A stretch of DNA of 38,277 nt from Cryomorphaceae bacterium (GTDB lineage: Bacteria > Bacteroidota > Bacteroidia > Flavobacteriales > Schleiferiaceae). The stretch covers positions 1 through 38,277 of the forward strand of contig JAFIEY010000013.1 of assembly GCA_020832345.1 (NCBI GenBank). Direction: 5' to 3'. The notes under the pieces were generated by a model that did no database searches, was not told the DNA's origin, and was given only the letters and a program-made list of their open reading frames with translations. Shown in pieces: positions 576-33,298 of the stretch. How positions within the stretch are numbered: position 1 is the first letter of the stretch; each line of letters begins with the position of its first letter. Position numbers and translations under genes: made by a program.

Positions 576-1772
576 ATGCGCTTATCTCAGAGAATACAGG
601 GGCTATCTGAAAGTCAGACCATCGCCATGGCCAAAAAAAGCCGTGAGCTGAAGAATCGTGGTAAAGATATCATTAGTTTGAGTCTTGGTGAGCCGGATTT
701 CCATACACCGGACTTTATTAAGGATGCGGCAAAGCAGGCCATTGACGATAATTTTTCCTTTTATACGCCAGTTGCTGGTTATGCTGATTTGCGGGAAGCC
801 ATTGTAAAAAAGCTGGAGCGCGATAACGGTTTATCTTATCATCCGGATGAAATTGTTGTGAGTACCGGCGCCAAGCAAGCCATTATCAACGCCATTATGT
901 GTACGGTAGATCCGGGCGATGAGGTAATTATCCCTGCGCCGTATTGGGTAAGTTATGTAGCTATGGTGGAAATTGCCGGAGGAAAACCGGTTATTATTCC
1001 AGCCGGGGTTGAGCAGGATTTTAAAATCACGCCACAGCAACTTGAAGATGCCATTTCACCTAAAAGCCGCCTTTTGTTGTATAGTTCCCCCTGCAATCCT
1101 TCCGGAAGTATTTATTCCGAAGATGAGTTGCGAGCTTTGGCGGAGGTCATTAAAAAGAAAGAAGAGCTATATGTCATTTCGGATGAAATTTATGAATTGA
1201 TTACTTACAACGGTAAAGTACCCAGCATGGCTGCTATTGAAGGTATGCAGGAACGCACGATGGTGGTCAATGGTTTGTCTAAAGGGTTCGCTATGACCGG
1301 TTGGCGATTAGGATACATGGCCGGACCAAAGGAAATTGCACAAGCTTGTGATAAAATGCAGGGTCAATTTACTTCTGCAACCAACAGCATCACCCAACGC
1401 GCCGCCATTGCTGCGGTAAACGCAGATCCCTCAGCATTAGAATACATGCGAAGTGCTTTTGAAAATCGGCGAAATCTCGTGATTGAGGGTTTGAAGAAAA
1501 TTCCAGGCTTGGTGGTCAACGAACCCAAAGGCGCTTTTTATGCCTTTCCCGATGTTTCAGCATATTTTGGAAAATCTTACGGTAATCACCATATTGCTAA
1601 CTCAACCGACCTAAGTCTGTATTTACTGGAAGATGCACTGGTTTCAGTCGTTACCGGAGATGCTTTCGGATCACCAAATTGCCTAAGGTTATCCTACGCA
1701 ACCTCCGAGGATATGCTAGAAAAAGCCCTGGAAAGACTGACTTCTTCTTTTTTAAAACTTTGGAATGCCTAA
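576..1772 (+). CDS. aspC: PLP-dependent aminotransferase, aspartate aminotransferase type Ib-like
   Basis: Fold-type I class I/II aminotransferase of 398 residues, the usual length for the bacterial aspartate aminotransferase Ib group, which moves the aspartate amino group to 2-oxoglutarate in the cytoplasm. Visible landmarks are LGEPDF near residue 37, NPSG with N174, SDEIY with D203 and Y206, the PLP-binding Lys236 in NGLSKGF followed by TGWRLGY, and the substrate-carboxylate Arg371 in CLRLSYA. I chose ATG 576 over the in-frame TTG at 555 because the TTG lies inside a promoter box and the family normally begins close to the RIQ motif. The stop overlaps the next gene by 8 bp, so this is the first gene of a rightward operon. 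Exact substrate preference (aspartate, prephenate or other) cannot be read from the sequence. Confidence 0.88.
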   Translation: MRLSQRIQGLSESQTIAMAKKSRELKNRGKDIISLSLGEPDFHTPDFIKDAAKQAIDDNFSFYTPVAGYADLREAIVKKLERDNGLSYHPDEIVVSTGAKQAIINAIMCTVDPGDEVIIPAPYWVSYVAMVEIAGGKPVIIPAGVEQDFKITPQQLEDAISPKSRLLLYSSPCNPSGSIYSEDELRALAEVIKKKEELYVISDEIYELITYNGKVPSMAAIEGMQERTMVVNGLSKGFAMTGWRLGYMAGPKEIAQACDKMQGQFTSATNSITQRAAIAAVNADPSALEYMRSAFENRRNLVIEGLKKIPGLVVNEPKGAFYAFPDVSAYFGKSYGNHHIANSTDLSLYLLEDALVSVVTGDAFGSPNCLRLSYATSEDMLEKALERLTSSFLKLWNA

Positions 1773-2379
1773 CACCATGGTGGAGAATTGGTTTGATATT
1801 TTTAATCGTGCCATTGAGGATTATCACCTTTTGGATGATGTGAATCAATCGATGCCCAGTGCCTACCCACAGGGTAGTGAATCTTTTTTGCTCTATAAAA
1901 AATGCTGGATCGACACTGTTCAGTGGCATTTGGAAGACATTGTCCGCGACCCTGAAATTGACCCGGAAAAGGGCATGAAAATCAAACGGGAAATCGATGC
2001 GTCAAATCAGCGGAGAACTGATTTGGTGGAACAACTAGACGATCATTTTATCAATGTTCTCCAATTGCCAGAAGTTCCACCTGCAAGCGCCCGCCTCAAT
2101 ACTGAAAGTTTGGCTTGGGCCTTAGATCGCTTGTCTATCCTGGCGCTCAAGATTTATCACATGGAAATTGAATTCGAAAGGGCGCAAGGGGATCGAAAGA
2201 CTTTTTTGGAGGCGAAGAGGTCTATTCTTCTTGCCCAAAAGGCGGATTTGTTTCATTCCATTAATGCATTAATCGAAGATGTAAAACTAGGGAGGCGTTA
2301 TTATAAGGTTTATAGACAGGTGAAAATGTACAATGATCCCAGCTTAAACCCTGTTCTTTACAAAAACACCAAGTCGTGA
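1765..2379 (+). CDS. DUF4254 family protein
   Basis: Protein of 204 residues that I recognise as the Bacteroidota family DUF4254. It is acidic and predicted mostly helical, with no signal peptide or membrane segment, so it is probably cytoplasmic. Characteristic stretches include the N-terminal FNRAIEDYH, the LYKKCWIDTVQWHLED segment near residues 43-58, and IDASNQRRTDLVEQLD near 88-103. Its start lies inside the 3' end of the aminotransferase gene (8-bp overlap) and its stop overlaps the glycosyltransferase start by 4 bp, so it is translationally coupled to both. Coupling to a heptosyltransferase-like gene suggests an envelope or LPS-related role, but that is inference from position and no activity is known to me. 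A second in-frame ATG at 1777 is an alternative start. Confidence 0.8.
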   Translation: MPNTMVENWFDIFNRAIEDYHLLDDVNQSMPSAYPQGSESFLLYKKCWIDTVQWHLEDIVRDPEIDPEKGMKIKREIDASNQRRTDLVEQLDDHFINVLQLPEVPPASARLNTESLAWALDRLSILALKIYHMEIEFERAQGDRKTFLEAKRSILLAQKADLFHSINALIEDVKLGRRYYKVYRQVKMYNDPSLNPVLYKNTKS

Positions 2380-28158: not shown

Positions 28159-29418
28159 TTACAACAATTCGGCTTTGATGGCGTCCACATAATCGAGCTT
28201 TTCCCAGGTGAAAAGTTCAATTTCTCGCTCAATGATTTCTTCTTTTCCGTTGTTTAGTCGTTTGAATGTTTTGGTTACTTTTTCGCTTTGACGACCCATG
28301 TGGCCATAGGCAGCAGATTCACTGTACATTGGGTTGCGCAGGTTCAGTCGGGTTTCAATGGCGTAAGGCGTAAGCGGGAAAAGTTTCCTTACAACTGTAG
28401 CAATTTTTTCGTCACTTAAATTGTTTACTGCGGTTCCGTATGAATTTACGAAAATATTCATGGGCTCTGCAATTCCAATGGCGTAAGAAACCTGAACGAG
28501 AATTTCTCTACAAACACCCGCAGCCACAAGATTTTTGGCGATATGGCGTGCTGCATAGGCCGCAGAACGATCCACTTTGCTCGGGTCTTTGCCGGAAAAT
28601 GCACCACCTCCATGAGCGCCTTTTCCGCCGTAGGTGTCAACAATAATTTTTCTTCCCGTAAGTCCGGCATCGCCGTGAGGCCCGCCAATAACAAACTTAC
28701 CGGTGGGATTGATGTGATAAATAATGGAGTCATCAAAAAGTGATTGAACCGCTTCGTTCAACTGGGCCTTTACCCTGGGGATTAAAATCTGCACGACATC
28801 ACGACTGATTCGTGCTTGCATTTCTGCTTCTTCTCCGAAGTCATCGTGTTGGGTAGAAATAACAATGGTGTTAATTCTAATGGGCTTGTTATCATCGCTG
28901 TATTCGATGGTAACCTGTGCCTTGGCATCCGGACGGAGATAAGGAATTTCGTCGTTTTCTCTTCTCAATGCGGCCAATTCCATCAATAATCGGTGGGAAA
29001 TATCCAGGGCAAGAGGCATGTAGTTCGCGGTTTCTGAAGTTGCGTATCCAAACATCATTCCTTGGTCGCCGGCACCTTGCTCCTCGGGATTTCCTCGATC
29101 CACCCCTTGGTTGATGTCGGATGACTGCTCGTGAATGGCCGAAAATACCCCGCAAGAATTTCCGTCAAACATGTATTCACTTTTGGTATAACCGATTTTG
29201 TTAATGGTGTCGCGGGCAATTTGTTGCACATCGATATAGGTGTTTGATTTCACTTCCCCGGCTAAAACAACTTGACCGGTAGTAACCAAGGTTTCAACTG
29301 CAACCTTACTGGAAGGATCAAAAGCAAGAAAATTATCGAGAATGGCGTCGGAAATTTGATCGGCGACTTTATCGGGATGTCCTTCTGATACGGACTCGGA
29401 GGTAAAAAGATAGGGCAT
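28159..29418 (-). CDS. metK: S-adenosylmethionine synthase
   Basis: MetK makes SAM from methionine and ATP; 419 residues, the length usual for Bacteroidota. Motifs include the N-terminal [18 protein letters not shown] (10-27), the hexapeptide-type [12 protein letters not shown], and the P-loop-like [30 protein letters not shown] 29418 gives the canonical [14 protein letters not shown] opening. The gene has an unusually long leader, about 150 nt from the predicted -7 box to the ATG, containing a SAM-II-like aptamer, which implies feedback control by its own product. ettA follows after 20 bp. UbiE and TrmB in this window use the product. Confidence 0.97.
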
Positions 29419-29445
29419 TTACTCGTGTGTTATTTTTGTTAATAA

Positions 29446-29526
29446 TCATCTTTCAAACTGTGAAAAATAATGATTTTGACCAATCAATCTGAAAATGAAT
29501 GCCTTGCAGGGTAGCTGCTTTAGCAT
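29446..29526 (-). other. Possible 26-codon leader ORF in the metK 5' UTR
   Basis: An ATG within the 3' part of the aptamer opens a 26-codon frame ending in TGA (begins MLKQLPCKAF, ends HYFSQFER), 27 nt before the metK ATG. It contains no run of Met or Cys that would suggest attenuation. It may be chance; recorded because its start lies inside the structured element. Confidence 0.15.
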
Positions 29527-29563
29527 TTTTTATGGTGGTTGCAATCAGTCAAATCTTTCCACG
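29511..29563 (-). ncRNA. SAM-II/SAM-V-like riboswitch in the metK leader
   Basis: Read leftward from 29562, the RNA has GUGG (29562-29559), then GAUUUGACUGAUUGCAA (29555-29539), then CCAC (29538-29535) closing a 4-bp P1, then AUAAAAAAUGCUAAAGCAGC. The known SAM-II aptamer has the same order of conserved pieces: a P1 arm, GAUUUAAC..UAUUGCAA, the P1 partner, AUAAA, and GCUAAA. The P2 pseudoknot could form by loop CUG with CAG (29517-29515), replacing the CC/GG of the metX example. Position upstream of the SAM synthase gene fits SAM sensing. P1 is shorter than usual, and the element lies about 93 nt from the ATG, farther than typical SAM-II. Choice between SAM-II and SAM-V is open. Confidence 0.75.
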
Positions 29564-29570
29564 GGGGCGG

Positions 29571-29578
29571 CAAATGTA
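29571..29578 (-). promoter_or_regulatory. Candidate metK -7 box
   Basis: Leftward TACATTTG matches TAnnTTTG exactly. It would start the transcript just before the SAM-II-like element, giving a leader of about 145-150 nt. No -33 TTG at the standard spacing was found. Confidence 0.5.
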
Positions 29579-29670
29579 CATAACAGCGCAAAATATTTTG
29601 AGGGTAACTTTCATCACCTAAATGACCACTTAATTTTTGTAATATTGCAAAGTAAACTAAAGACAAAAAA

Positions 29671-30066
29671 ATGATGATTATACGAAAGCTTGTTTTTGCG
29701 ATGACCATTTCTTTTATGGCGGTTTCCTGCACGGGTCAATCTTCTCAATCCATGGAAAACAAAAACGTTGACGAGGTCGTGGAGTTGGAAAAGGAAAAAG
29801 ATGTTTTACTCATTGATGTGCGAACTCCAGGTGAAGTTGCCTCCGGATATCTCAAAGGAACAGATTATTTTTTTGATATAAGTAATCGTGATTTTGAAAA
29901 GAATATTGAAGGTCTCGACAAGAATAAAACCTATGTGGTTATTTGCCATAGTGGCGCCAGAAGCAGTAAAGCGGCAAATTATATGTTGAAAAATGGCTTT
30001 ACCCGAGTCATAAATATGTCGGGAGGAATGCGGGTTGTAAAGAATAACGCGTATATCACCAAATAG
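29671..30066 (+). CDS. Rhodanese-domain lipoprotein
   Basis: Single-domain rhodanese of 131 residues with a lipoprotein signal (MMIIRKLVFAMTISFMAVSC, lipidated Cys20), so it acts outside the cytoplasm. The domain starts near DVLLIDVRTPGEVASGYLKG (44-63). The active-site loop is VICHSGARSSKAA with catalytic Cys92 and the CxxGxR(S/T) pattern intact, so sulfurtransferase activity is plausible. It ends with GFTRVINMSGGM, the usual C-terminal helix-strand. The YeiH-family gene follows after 4 bp. Sulfur or thiosulfate chemistry is suggested by the pairing; the substrate is unknown. Confidence 0.9.
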   Translation: MMIIRKLVFAMTISFMAVSCTGQSSQSMENKNVDEVVELEKEKDVLLIDVRTPGEVASGYLKGTDYFFDISNRDFEKNIEGLDKNKTYVVICHSGARSSKAANYMLKNGFTRVINMSGGMRVVKNNAYITK

Positions 30067-30070
30067 CCCA

Positions 30071-31048
30071 ATGCTTCACTGGTTGCGCGAGCACGCCCCG
30101 GGTTTGGGGCTTATTTTATTTGTTGGTTTAGGATCTCATTTAGGCGCCGACTATTTGCCGGGGGTAAATGGTATTATGCTCGGGTTATTGCTCGGTATCG
30201 CTTTGGGTAATATCATCTCACTCCCCAAAAATTTTGAAAAAGGCGTTGGATTTTCGAGTTCTAAGGTACTTGAATTCTCCATCGTGATGATGGCTTTTTC
30301 CATCAATTTTGGTCATTTTGCCAAGTTGGGATATGGAAATCTTTTGTTGGTTGTTCTGGTTATGTTGGGGGTTTTATTACTCACTGTTTTTTTGGCCAGA
30401 AAATTAAACTGTCCCGATTCAACCGGATTTTTGGTTGGATTTGGAACCGCTATTTGCGGCTCCTCAGCAATTGCTGCTGTAGCGCCCAGTATAACTAAAA
30501 ATAATGCAGACATCGGAATTGCCTTTGCCGTAGTAAATCTCATGGGAAGTCTGGGGATGATTGCCATGCCTTTTGTTTTGTCTCTGTTTCAATTAACCGA
30601 AATTGAAAATGGTGTAGTGGTGGGCGCCTCCCTTCACTCCGTAGGTAATGTGGCCGGTGCTGGTTATGGAATGGATAAATTGGTTGGCGATACGGCAATT
30701 TCCATTAAAATGGCCAGAGTTGCACTCCTTTCGCCCGCTGTTATCTTTTTTACTTTTTTGGTCAATCGAAAAAATGCCGGTAACTGGAAAGATCACTTTA
30801 AACTGCCTTTGTATTTATGGGCGTTTATCGCCGTGACTTTGATGACTACATTTTTGCCCATTCCGGAAAATTTTATCCAAACCATGAGCAGTGTGGCCAA
30901 GCTCCTTTTGACTTTTGCCATGGTCGCAATAGGATTTAAGGTGAGTTTTAAAAACTTGTATCAATCCGGACGAAAAGCCATGACTTTTGGGTTGGTGATT
31001 TTCGGGGTTCAGATTATTTTGATTGCCATTTTCATGGTTGTACTATAA
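30071..31048 (+). CDS. YeiH/PSE-family membrane protein (putative sulfate exporter family)
   Basis: Polytopic inner-membrane protein of 325 residues with about ten hydrophobic helices. It belongs to the conserved hypothetical 698/YeiH family, often annotated as putative sulfate exporter. Family marks are GIALGNIISLP near 42-52, STGFLVGFGTAICGSSAIAAVAPSI near 117-141 with the conserved ICGSSAIAA, and VGASLHSVGNVAGAGYGM near 184-201. It is only 4 bp downstream of an extracytoplasmic rhodanese, so the two are almost certainly cotranscribed, which fits handling of an inorganic sulfur anion. The transported species is unproven. A degraded hairpin repeat follows 9 bp after the stop. Confidence 0.88.
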   Translation: MLHWLREHAPGLGLILFVGLGSHLGADYLPGVNGIMLGLLLGIALGNIISLPKNFEKGVGFSSSKVLEFSIVMMAFSINFGHFAKLGYGNLLLVVLVMLGVLLLTVFLARKLNCPDSTGFLVGFGTAICGSSAIAAVAPSITKNNADIGIAFAVVNLMGSLGMIAMPFVLSLFQLTEIENGVVVGASLHSVGNVAGAGYGMDKLVGDTAISIKMARVALLSPAVIFFTFLVNRKNAGNWKDHFKLPLYLWAFIAVTLMTTFLPIPENFIQTMSSVAKLLLTFAMVAIGFKVSFKNLYQSGRKAMTFGLVIFGVQIILIAIFMVVL

Positions 31049-31114: not shown

Positions 31115-33298
31115 TCACTTTTTAACTAAGAGCTTTTTCGTTTGCAATATTGATCCTTTTTCATCGCGGATATATATGAAATATACGCCGTTGGACAAAC
31201 GATCTACGTCCAGATTTGCTTCATTTTGACCAGTGGAAATTTGCGCCTTTTGAATGATCTGGCCAGCGATATCGACAAAGGTAATGTTTTGAGAATCGGG
31301 GTGTAAGTTTTTAATACTGACCTTTGATTGGGCGGGATTAGGGAAAATTACCAAAGGAAAATTATCGGATATTTTTGTGGAAAAAACTTCGTTATCCCAA
31401 AGGTCAAACCGCTCGCTTATTTGATAAAAAATACCGTCGTCGGCTTTAAATAACAAACGGCCCTGAGCGGTGGTGGGTGTATTGCTTGGAAGATAAACGA
31501 ATGCAAATCCAATATTTGCGTAAGTTCCCAAAAATTGGTCAAAGTTTGCCCCGTTGTCGAAACTGAGCCAGATGTTAATTCGTTCACAGGATATGGGTGC
31601 TTCGTCTGTGTTGCCAGGATCCCAGGTAATTAAATTTAGGGCACGGTTATAAAGTCCCTCTCCACTATTGAGGGCCAATATTTCAAAGGGTTCGTCACCT
31701 ACGGTATTAAAAAAAACATTCGACCAGGATACGGCGCTACCTTGGGGATTATTGTCCCGAACTGTGACGCGAAAATTGAGGCGTCGCGGAGCAAAAATCA
31801 ATCTTTCACCAAGAATATTTACGCCGGACAGTACAGTACTAATTCGCGGAAAATATTGAACCCCCTCTGTTGAAGGTGAAAAACTGCGATATACCGGGCC
31901 TCTGTCTATGGTCGTCGATTGGTTGGCTGGCCCCAAATCATATTGTTCCCAAGTATAAGTCAACGGATCGCCTTCAGGATCAGTTGCGGAAGCGGAGAGG
32001 TAAAAGGGCGTTAAAATAGGTGCGTATTGACTGGCAAGTGATGTCGTAATGGTCGCGGCCTGGTTGCCGGTAGAAACCTTGGCTGCACAGTTGTTTCCGG
32101 CGGCATTAAAGGCAAAATTCGTGATTTCCCGAATGGAGTGATGGTGGAAGTAATCGTCGGAATTGCTCTGAAGGTTTGGGGGGCATATCCCGGCATATCC
32201 CATAATTGTTGACGCACTAAACGGTTCGTAGGCAGATTGTCCCGACCTGTTGCAACTGTTGTTTTGGGTATGGCGTGCTCCAAATTGATGCCCTATTTCG
32301 TGGGCGACATAATCAATATCGAATGGGTCGTTTATTGGACTCTGAATACCGGTAACGCCTCTCGCTTTCTGGGTAGTACACACCGAGCCAAGTGAAGCTA
32401 ACCCGCCAGCGCCAGTGGAAAATACATGTCCAATATCGTAATTCGAAAACCCTATGCTTCCATTGATGACTCCGGGATTGGCATTAATCATTTGGGTCGC
32501 ACTGCTATTGTTGTAGGGGTCGGTTGACGGATTGGTGAAAATTATAGATGCATTATTTGGAATCAATTCCAGTGTAATGGCAGCGTCCGTTTCATAAACA
32601 GAATTTACCCGGTTAATTGTCGTGACAATTGCGGCAAGGGCACTGTTAACCGTCCCACCGTGAAAAATCGTGTATTCCCCGGTAGCAGCTACGGCAATTC
32701 TGTATTTGTTGAATTCATTTTCAACGAAAACATTGGAATTTTCCGCTGCCCCATTTGTCATTTCCGACAAATAATTTTCCATGGAATCCGCATCGATCAA
32801 ACAAGCGTGGTTAGCATTTCGCAACAAGTTCTCTCGTTTGTAAAAAGTGCGTAAATTATGGTTGTCTAAATTTACAGGGTCAATATACAATTTCTCAGAG
32901 GGTGTATTGATGACGGCACGAAAACCAAACGCCGGACTGTAGTCGAAGTAAATTACGGCTTGGGTTTTTTTGTCATAACCTTTTCCTGCAAAAATTTCCG
33001 GAAACTGATTTTGCAACTCCGGATGCATGCAGTGATTGGTTAGGGGAGTGAAGGAGTAAACCCCATTTTCTGGTGTATGTATATTAATGCTATAACCCTG
33101 TTCTTCTCGTGCGAATTTTTTTAGGTTGGGGATGTTTTCCGGTTTTTCGGGTAGGACAAGGAAATAGTTGCTATTGTTCGGAATGTACAAGGAATCCCCC
33201 ACACTATAGTTTTCCATTTTCTCTACATAAAAGTCTATGGATTGCCCTGATAGGAAAAAAGCCAAGAGCGCGAAAACAATGATAAACTTTAGCCGCAT
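31115..33298 (-). CDS. Secreted reprolysin-type zinc metalloprotease with T9SS sorting domain
   Basis: Protein of 727 residues. A signal peptide (1-18, ending FLSGQS) precedes a propeptide-like region to about 190. The metzincin catalytic domain (about 195-400) carries HEIGHQFGARH (333-343), with zinc ligands H333, H337 and H343 and catalytic E334. The Met-turn is IMGYAG (M366). One or two Ig/cadherin-like domains follow (e.g. LSASATDPEGDPLTYTWEQY). The last 75 residues are a type A type IX sorting domain, opening VIFPNPAQSKVSI and ending LSNGVYFIYIRDEKGSILQTK with basic terminal residues. It is therefore exported by Sec and then by the Por system, of which PorT is encoded here. Cys90 or Cys166 in the prodomain could act as an inhibitory switch. 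Confidence 0.93.
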   Translation of the reverse strand: MRLKFIIVFALLAFFLSGQSIDFYVEKMENYSVGDSLYIPNNSNYFLVLPEKPENIPNLKKFAREEQGYSINIHTPENGVYSFTPLTNHCMHPELQNQFPEIFAGKGYDKKTQAVIYFDYSPAFGFRAVINTPSEKLYIDPVNLDNHNLRTFYKRENLLRNANHACLIDADSMENYLSEMTNGAAENSNVFVENEFNKYRIAVAATGEYTIFHGGTVNSALAAIVTTINRVNSVYETDAAITLELIPNNASIIFTNPSTDPYNNSSATQMINANPGVINGSIGFSNYDIGHVFSTGAGGLASLGSVCTTQKARGVTGIQSPINDPFDIDYVAHEIGHQFGARHTQNNSCNRSGQSAYEPFSASTIMGYAGICPPNLQSNSDDYFHHHSIREITNFAFNAAGNNCAAKVSTGNQAATITTSLASQYAPILTPFYLSASATDPEGDPLTYTWEQYDLGPANQSTTIDRGPVYRSFSPSTEGVQYFPRISTVLSGVNILGERLIFAPRRLNFRVTVRDNNPQGSAVSWSNVFFNTVGDEPFEILALNSGEGLYNRALNLITWDPGNTDEAPISCERINIWLSFDNGANFDQFLGTYANIGFAFVYLPSNTPTTAQGRLLFKADDGIFYQISERFDLWDNEVFSTKISDNFPLVIFPNPAQSKVSIKNLHPDSQNITFVDIAGQIIQKAQISTGQNEANLDVDRLSNGVYFIYIRDEKGSILQTKKLLVKK

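Follow-up and report, generated by a model that had tools for sequence, protein, structure and literature searches.

The leader of metK in the 38,277-nt stretch of Cryomorphaceae DNA analyzed here (hereafter, the window) contains a SAM-II riboswitch aptamer of the long-loop group, as supported by a full-length covariance-model match. This riboswitch probably exerts feedback control on metK, with the leader switching between the aptamer fold when SAM is bound and an anti-aptamer fold when it is absent; a Rho-dependent output is the least certain part of this reading. An Rfam scan of the whole window gave RF01726 (SAM-II long loop) a score of 64.7 bits, above its cut-off of 44 (E = 2e-10), with a 59-nt aptamer that covers the model end to end (positions 1 to 60 of 60; Table 1). 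No other Rfam match in the window exceeds its cut-off, and the 4.03-Mb genome has no second RF01726 copy. The initial annotation had recognized a SAM-II- or SAM-V-like element here, and all of the parts that it described (i.e., the -7 box, P1, loop block, A-tract, GCUAAA, and CUG/CAG) are present on the minus strand. The SAM-II assignment holds for the long-loop model, while the SAM_alpha model (RF00521) gave 13.9 bits, below its cut-off of 36. The likeness to SAM-V is not borne out, as a 281-base query against all of Rfam returned no SAM-V match at E <= 10.

Table 1. Features of the metK locus and of the related locus L114
Feature	Sequence	Position	Strand	Basis or remarks
-7 box TACATTTG (TAnnTTTG)	window	29571-29578	-	read in sequence
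SAM-II aptamer	window	29510-29568	-	RF01726 full-length covariance-model match (29568-29510)
P1 and loop	window	29535-29562	-	GUGG 29562-29559 / CCAC 29538-29535; compensatory UA to AU in relatives
Aptamer block GAUUUGACUGAUUGCAA	window	29555-29539	-	read in sequence
P2 pseudoknot	window	29515-29548	-	P2b CUG 29548-29546 / CAG 29517-29515; P2a GCA 29542-29540 / UGC 29525-29523
A-tract	window	29531-29526	-	read in sequence
GCUAAA block	window	29524-29519	-	read in sequence
Proximal anti-aptamer hairpin	window	29498-29527	-	predicted fold; AAUGCU 29527-29522 / GGCAUU 29503-29498; GCAG 29518-29515 / CUGC 29509-29506
Distal anti-aptamer element	window	29472-29485	-	predicted fold; 13 bp with aptamer 29555-29543; incompatible with P1/P2
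Extra 11-bp hairpin	window	29445-29471	-	predicted fold; just ahead of metK; not seen in congeners
metK, methionine adenosyltransferase, 419 aa	window	28159-29418	-	NCBIfam TIGR01034, 513 bits (cut-off, 309); Pfam S-AdoMet_synt N, M, and C
SAM-II-like aptamer	L114	2075-2130	-	precedes O-acetylhomoserine sulfhydrylase (methionine gene), 664-1974 (-)

Weinberg et al. described RF01726 in 2010 (PMC2864571), listing it as a cis-regulatory switch found in Bacteroidetes and in marine samples. The window aptamer agrees with this family in its conserved blocks, its phylum, and its P2b letters, with no difference in the aptamer, and thus adds one member to an already catalogued kind. The suggestion that it might be a variant is therefore set aside; the CUG/CAG pairing in P2, which had been taken as a departure from the known aptamer, is present as proposed and is the RF01726 consensus. 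Classical SAM-II (RF00521) shares the block order GAUUU, AUUGCA, GCUAAA as well as P1 and the P2 pseudoknot, whereas its P2b letters and loop lengths differ from those of the window. Judging from family membership, the window aptamer would bind SAM.

The P1 helix and the P2 pseudoknot both pair in the window sequence. Across 31 aligned aptamers, standard pairs occupy 97.4% of cells, and the covariation score is 0.187, compared with 0.069 for shuffled alignments and at most 0.108 for versions slid by 1 to 3 columns. Pair exchanges among relatives occur in P1 (Table 1) and in P2b, which appears as CG, UA, and AU, and in 129 of 164 distinct loci the tail carries a triplet complementary to P2b (82.6 +- 3.8 in shuffles). 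Because the structure in the RF01726 model omits the pseudoknot, this covariation supports the pseudoknot beyond the Rfam match itself.

RF01726 matches above the cut-off were found in 64 of the 88 genomes of the same family (the window's own genome included) and in all four congeners. A phylum-wide sample of 395 genomes gave 57 with such a match and another six at weaker scores. The related loci number 237, comprising 119 from the RF01726 searches of family and phylum and 118 retrieved from named genomes by DNA pattern (the two sets may have a few species in common). They were reduced to 164 distinct leaders on the basis of shared 7-mers, and as the loci are mutually related, all such counts overstate independence. 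The conservation of the aptamer blocks expected of related metK leaders is confirmed. metK lies directly downstream in 234 of the 237 loci; of the remaining three, L061 and L214 reach the end of their sequence within about 60 nt of the aptamer, and L114 precedes a different gene. An aptamer together with its leader is common to L063 and L170, the latter named as a Cryomorphaceae metagenome-assembled genome, which places that group within the family of the window. The distance to the start codon, which the initial annotation had taken as a possible sign of a variant, is indeed longer in the window (91 nt) than in congeners (58 to 62 nt), but it is roughly 46 to 150 nt in nearly all relatives, and aptamers in the Bacteroidota as a rule lie far from the start codon.

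Two groups of relatives depart from the compact form. The aptamers of L059, L100, L103, L106, and L110-L113 form a low-scoring subgroup (39 to 53 bits) with an extra stem in the first loop, the site of the P2b strand, and with GUGCUAA in place of AUGCUAAA. A second group, consisting of a single same-order family (L094, L095, L097-L099, L101, L102, L104, L105, L107, L108, and L115-L119), has at least one additional hairpin inserted between P1 and the A-tract, giving aptamers of about 105 to 115 nt and lowered Rfam scores. In a same-class genome with no RF01726 match, a SAM-I (S box) riboswitch lies near metK on the opposite strand (L252:1218-1316, -).

Of the 164 distinct loci, 152 have a strict TAnnTTTG box upstream of the aptamer, compared with 5% expected by shuffling. 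Since the flavobacterial -7 box sits at positions -12 to -5 (PMC9723704), transcription is predicted to start at about 29566, about 4 nt ahead of P1. The metK product makes SAM, and the combination of aptamer family and gene suggests that metK is feedback controlled by SAM.

The leaders between aptamer and metK hold complements of the aptamer blocks. Read side by side, these complements stand in nested reverse order, like an inverted copy: CUUUAGC of GCUAAAG, GCAAUC of GAUUGC, GUCAAAUC of GAUUUGAC, and UUUCC[A/U]C of the P1 5' strand. Their median positions after the aptamer are about 15 to 18 nt for the GCUAAAG complement and about 27 to 38 nt for the 5'-strand complements. Measured against dinucleotide-preserving shuffles, which keep composition, pairing of the aptamer 5' strand with the leader gave a mean z of -2.00. 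Of the 164 distinct leaders, 79 reached p <= 0.05, where chance would give about 8, as did 23 of the 40 distinct leaders of the window's own family; in half of the leaders, the complementarity was not significant. The corresponding values for the 3' strand were a mean z of -0.82 and 31 of 164 leaders, and controls (i.e., upstream DNA and the first 60 nt of metK) were near chance, with mean z between -0.21 and +0.36.

In the window, two pairings of this kind are predicted by folding with standard parameters at 37 C, with neither pseudoknots nor ligand (Table 1). The proximal hairpin is incompatible with P2 and has an equivalent pairing in congeners; it gave p = 0.02 as a 3'-strand duplex and p = 0.33 in a local-fold test. 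The distal pairing, which is strong across relatives, was not significant at the window locus alone (p = 0.07 to 0.10), and the whole-leader fold gave p = 0.09. Because these pairings are weak singly while 23 of 40 own-family leaders are significant, an anti-aptamer at this locus is suggested mainly by the family. Congener leaders are about 30 nt shorter than that of the window.

We propose that, when SAM is low, the leader would pair with the aptamer, the distal element with the 5' strand and the proximal element with AAUGCUAAAGCAG, so that the aptamer comes apart and metK is expressed. When SAM is present, P1 and P2 would form, the anti-aptamer strands would be freed, and metK would be turned down (OFF). 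The aptamer and anti-aptamer folds are mutually exclusive as modeled. The direction of the response follows the same logic as the antiterminator and terminator of L114 (described below), which is an analogy and not proof. A similar opposition is found in the SAM-II riboswitches of Sinorhizobium meliloti metZ and metA, in which the aptamer is opposed by an alternative fold and SAM lowers expression (PMC9373788). The outputs of these switches are a Rho-independent terminator (metZ, predicted) and a Shine-Dalgarno (SD) sequence (metA), neither of which is general in Bacteroidota metK leaders.

For the output step, Rho-dependent termination is the tentative first choice and translational control an equally tentative second. 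The largest predicted change upon withholding the aptamer strand is at positions -60 to -31 relative to metK, where the unpaired probability rises from 0.31-0.35 to 0.53-0.58; a smaller predicted opening extends to -21. The transcript may be lost by Rho-dependent termination at this freed single-stranded segment, 20 to 60 nt ahead of the start codon. Such an output is proposed because hardly any leader has an intrinsic terminator and the start codon neither adjoins the aptamer nor is clearly masked, and Rho is encoded in the genome. An excess of C over G in the leaders (C, 0.20; G, 0.107), considered as a Rho signature, is partly common to control metK leaders without an aptamer. Extended to the whole phylum, the proposal becomes tentative: SAM-II metK switches of Bacteroidota might generally use a conserved anti-aptamer, an imperfectly inverted aptamer copy within the leader, with SAM exposing a Rho-loading or otherwise destabilizing segment.

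It is possible, if somewhat doubtful, that the same aptamer/anti-aptamer switch acts with no termination, by altering how readily ribosomes reach the metK start or a standby site within the leader. mRNA structure tunes translation in Bacteroidetes (PMC6847099), a SAM-II switch of Sinorhizobium controls translation from a distance (PMC9373788), and positions -10 to -1 are slightly less open with the aptamer strand withheld (0.45 versus 0.51). However, little change is predicted around the metK start between the two folds, and the structure that does change sits 20 to 60 nt upstream of it. The SD-sequestration type of SAM-II switch, with a ribosome-binding site in or next to P2, does not fit the window, whose start codon (ATG at 29418) lies 91 nt downstream of the aptamer. 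SD masking is in any case no option, because Bacteroidetes lack the SD sequences that such switches hide (PMC6847099). A peptide encoded in the leader and starting at the aptamer AAAAAAUG (26 codons in the window) was considered and rejected: its median length is 19 codons, compared with 18 in another frame, and 14 of 164 loci lack the AAAAAAUG-start AUG. A 70-codon open frame that covers the promoter along with most of the aptamer (window 29520-29732, -) is probably spurious.

That the aptamer is real and its complementary leader has no switching role, the complementarity being a consequence of pyrimidine-rich composition or a structural by-product, appears unlikely. Leaders are C- and T-rich, which eases pairing with GGAAAGA; the lack of significance of the distal element in the window alone also agrees with such a reading. 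Against it, the shuffles that keep composition are clearly exceeded, and leader complementarity is locus specific, each leader preferring its own aptamer: when 5' strands were swapped between loci, the mean rank of the own aptamer was 0.26, compared with 0.46 for shuffled leaders, in which the preference is lost, and 0.56 for the metK start. Exact 6-mer complements are enriched up to 12-fold, and they include the mixed-composition GCAATC and TTTAGC, in nested order. The sequences also change together. Where the core reads CTTGC in place of ATTGC, the leader tends to read GCAAG in place of GCAAT (GCAAG in 5 of 9 versus 4 of 152 distinct loci; Fisher, 2e-4), a match that few evolutionary events may underlie, and leader CCAC occurs in 24 of 88 GTGG loci versus 6 of 75 GAGG loci. 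Covariation in the flanks of the complementary blocks is mixed, being significant for the right flanks of CAAATC, CAATC, and TTTAG and not for others.

Release of a classical terminator hairpin upon SAM binding, as predicted for alphaproteobacterial SAM-II switches, many of which use terminators (PMC2258182; PMC9373788), is very improbable as the general mechanism, as 3 of 164 leaders carry a terminator-like hairpin (6 once the aptamer 3' strand is added), even though L114 provides an instance in the same phylum. The L114 aptamer scores below both cut-offs (31.9 of 44 for RF01726 and 30.8 of 36 for RF00521). In its predicted fold, the aptamer GCUAAAAAGGUA pairs with UACUUUUUUAGC; with the aptamer strand left out, a long hairpin forms and is followed by a U8 run. 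This distant phylum member thus has an apparent antiterminator and terminator. Like the window, it has a GCUAAA strand that pairs downstream in the alternative fold, here with CUUUUUUAGC; it differs in having the strong hairpin and U8 run.

As the aptamer is already known, the importance of this locus may lie in the output step, and the expression platform may be new. The main text of PMC2864571 does not describe the leader platform proposed here, and the literature searched yielded no described expression mechanism for Bacteroidetes SAM-II switches. If the proposed switch is correct, it would represent a riboswitch working with neither an SD sequence nor an intrinsic terminator. The leaders yield a concrete model that can be tested by mutation, with two exclusive folds, a segment predicted to become exposed, and compensatory changes in relatives throughout the phylum, and gene control by a riboswitch without SD masking or an intrinsic terminator thereby becomes a directly testable question.

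Elsewhere around metK in the window, the genes divergent from it (29671-31048, +) encode a protein with a rhodanese domain and a membrane protein of the Cons_hypoth698 type, and a reprolysin-like metallopeptidase that bears a Por_Secre_tail sorting domain is encoded at 31115-33298 (-).
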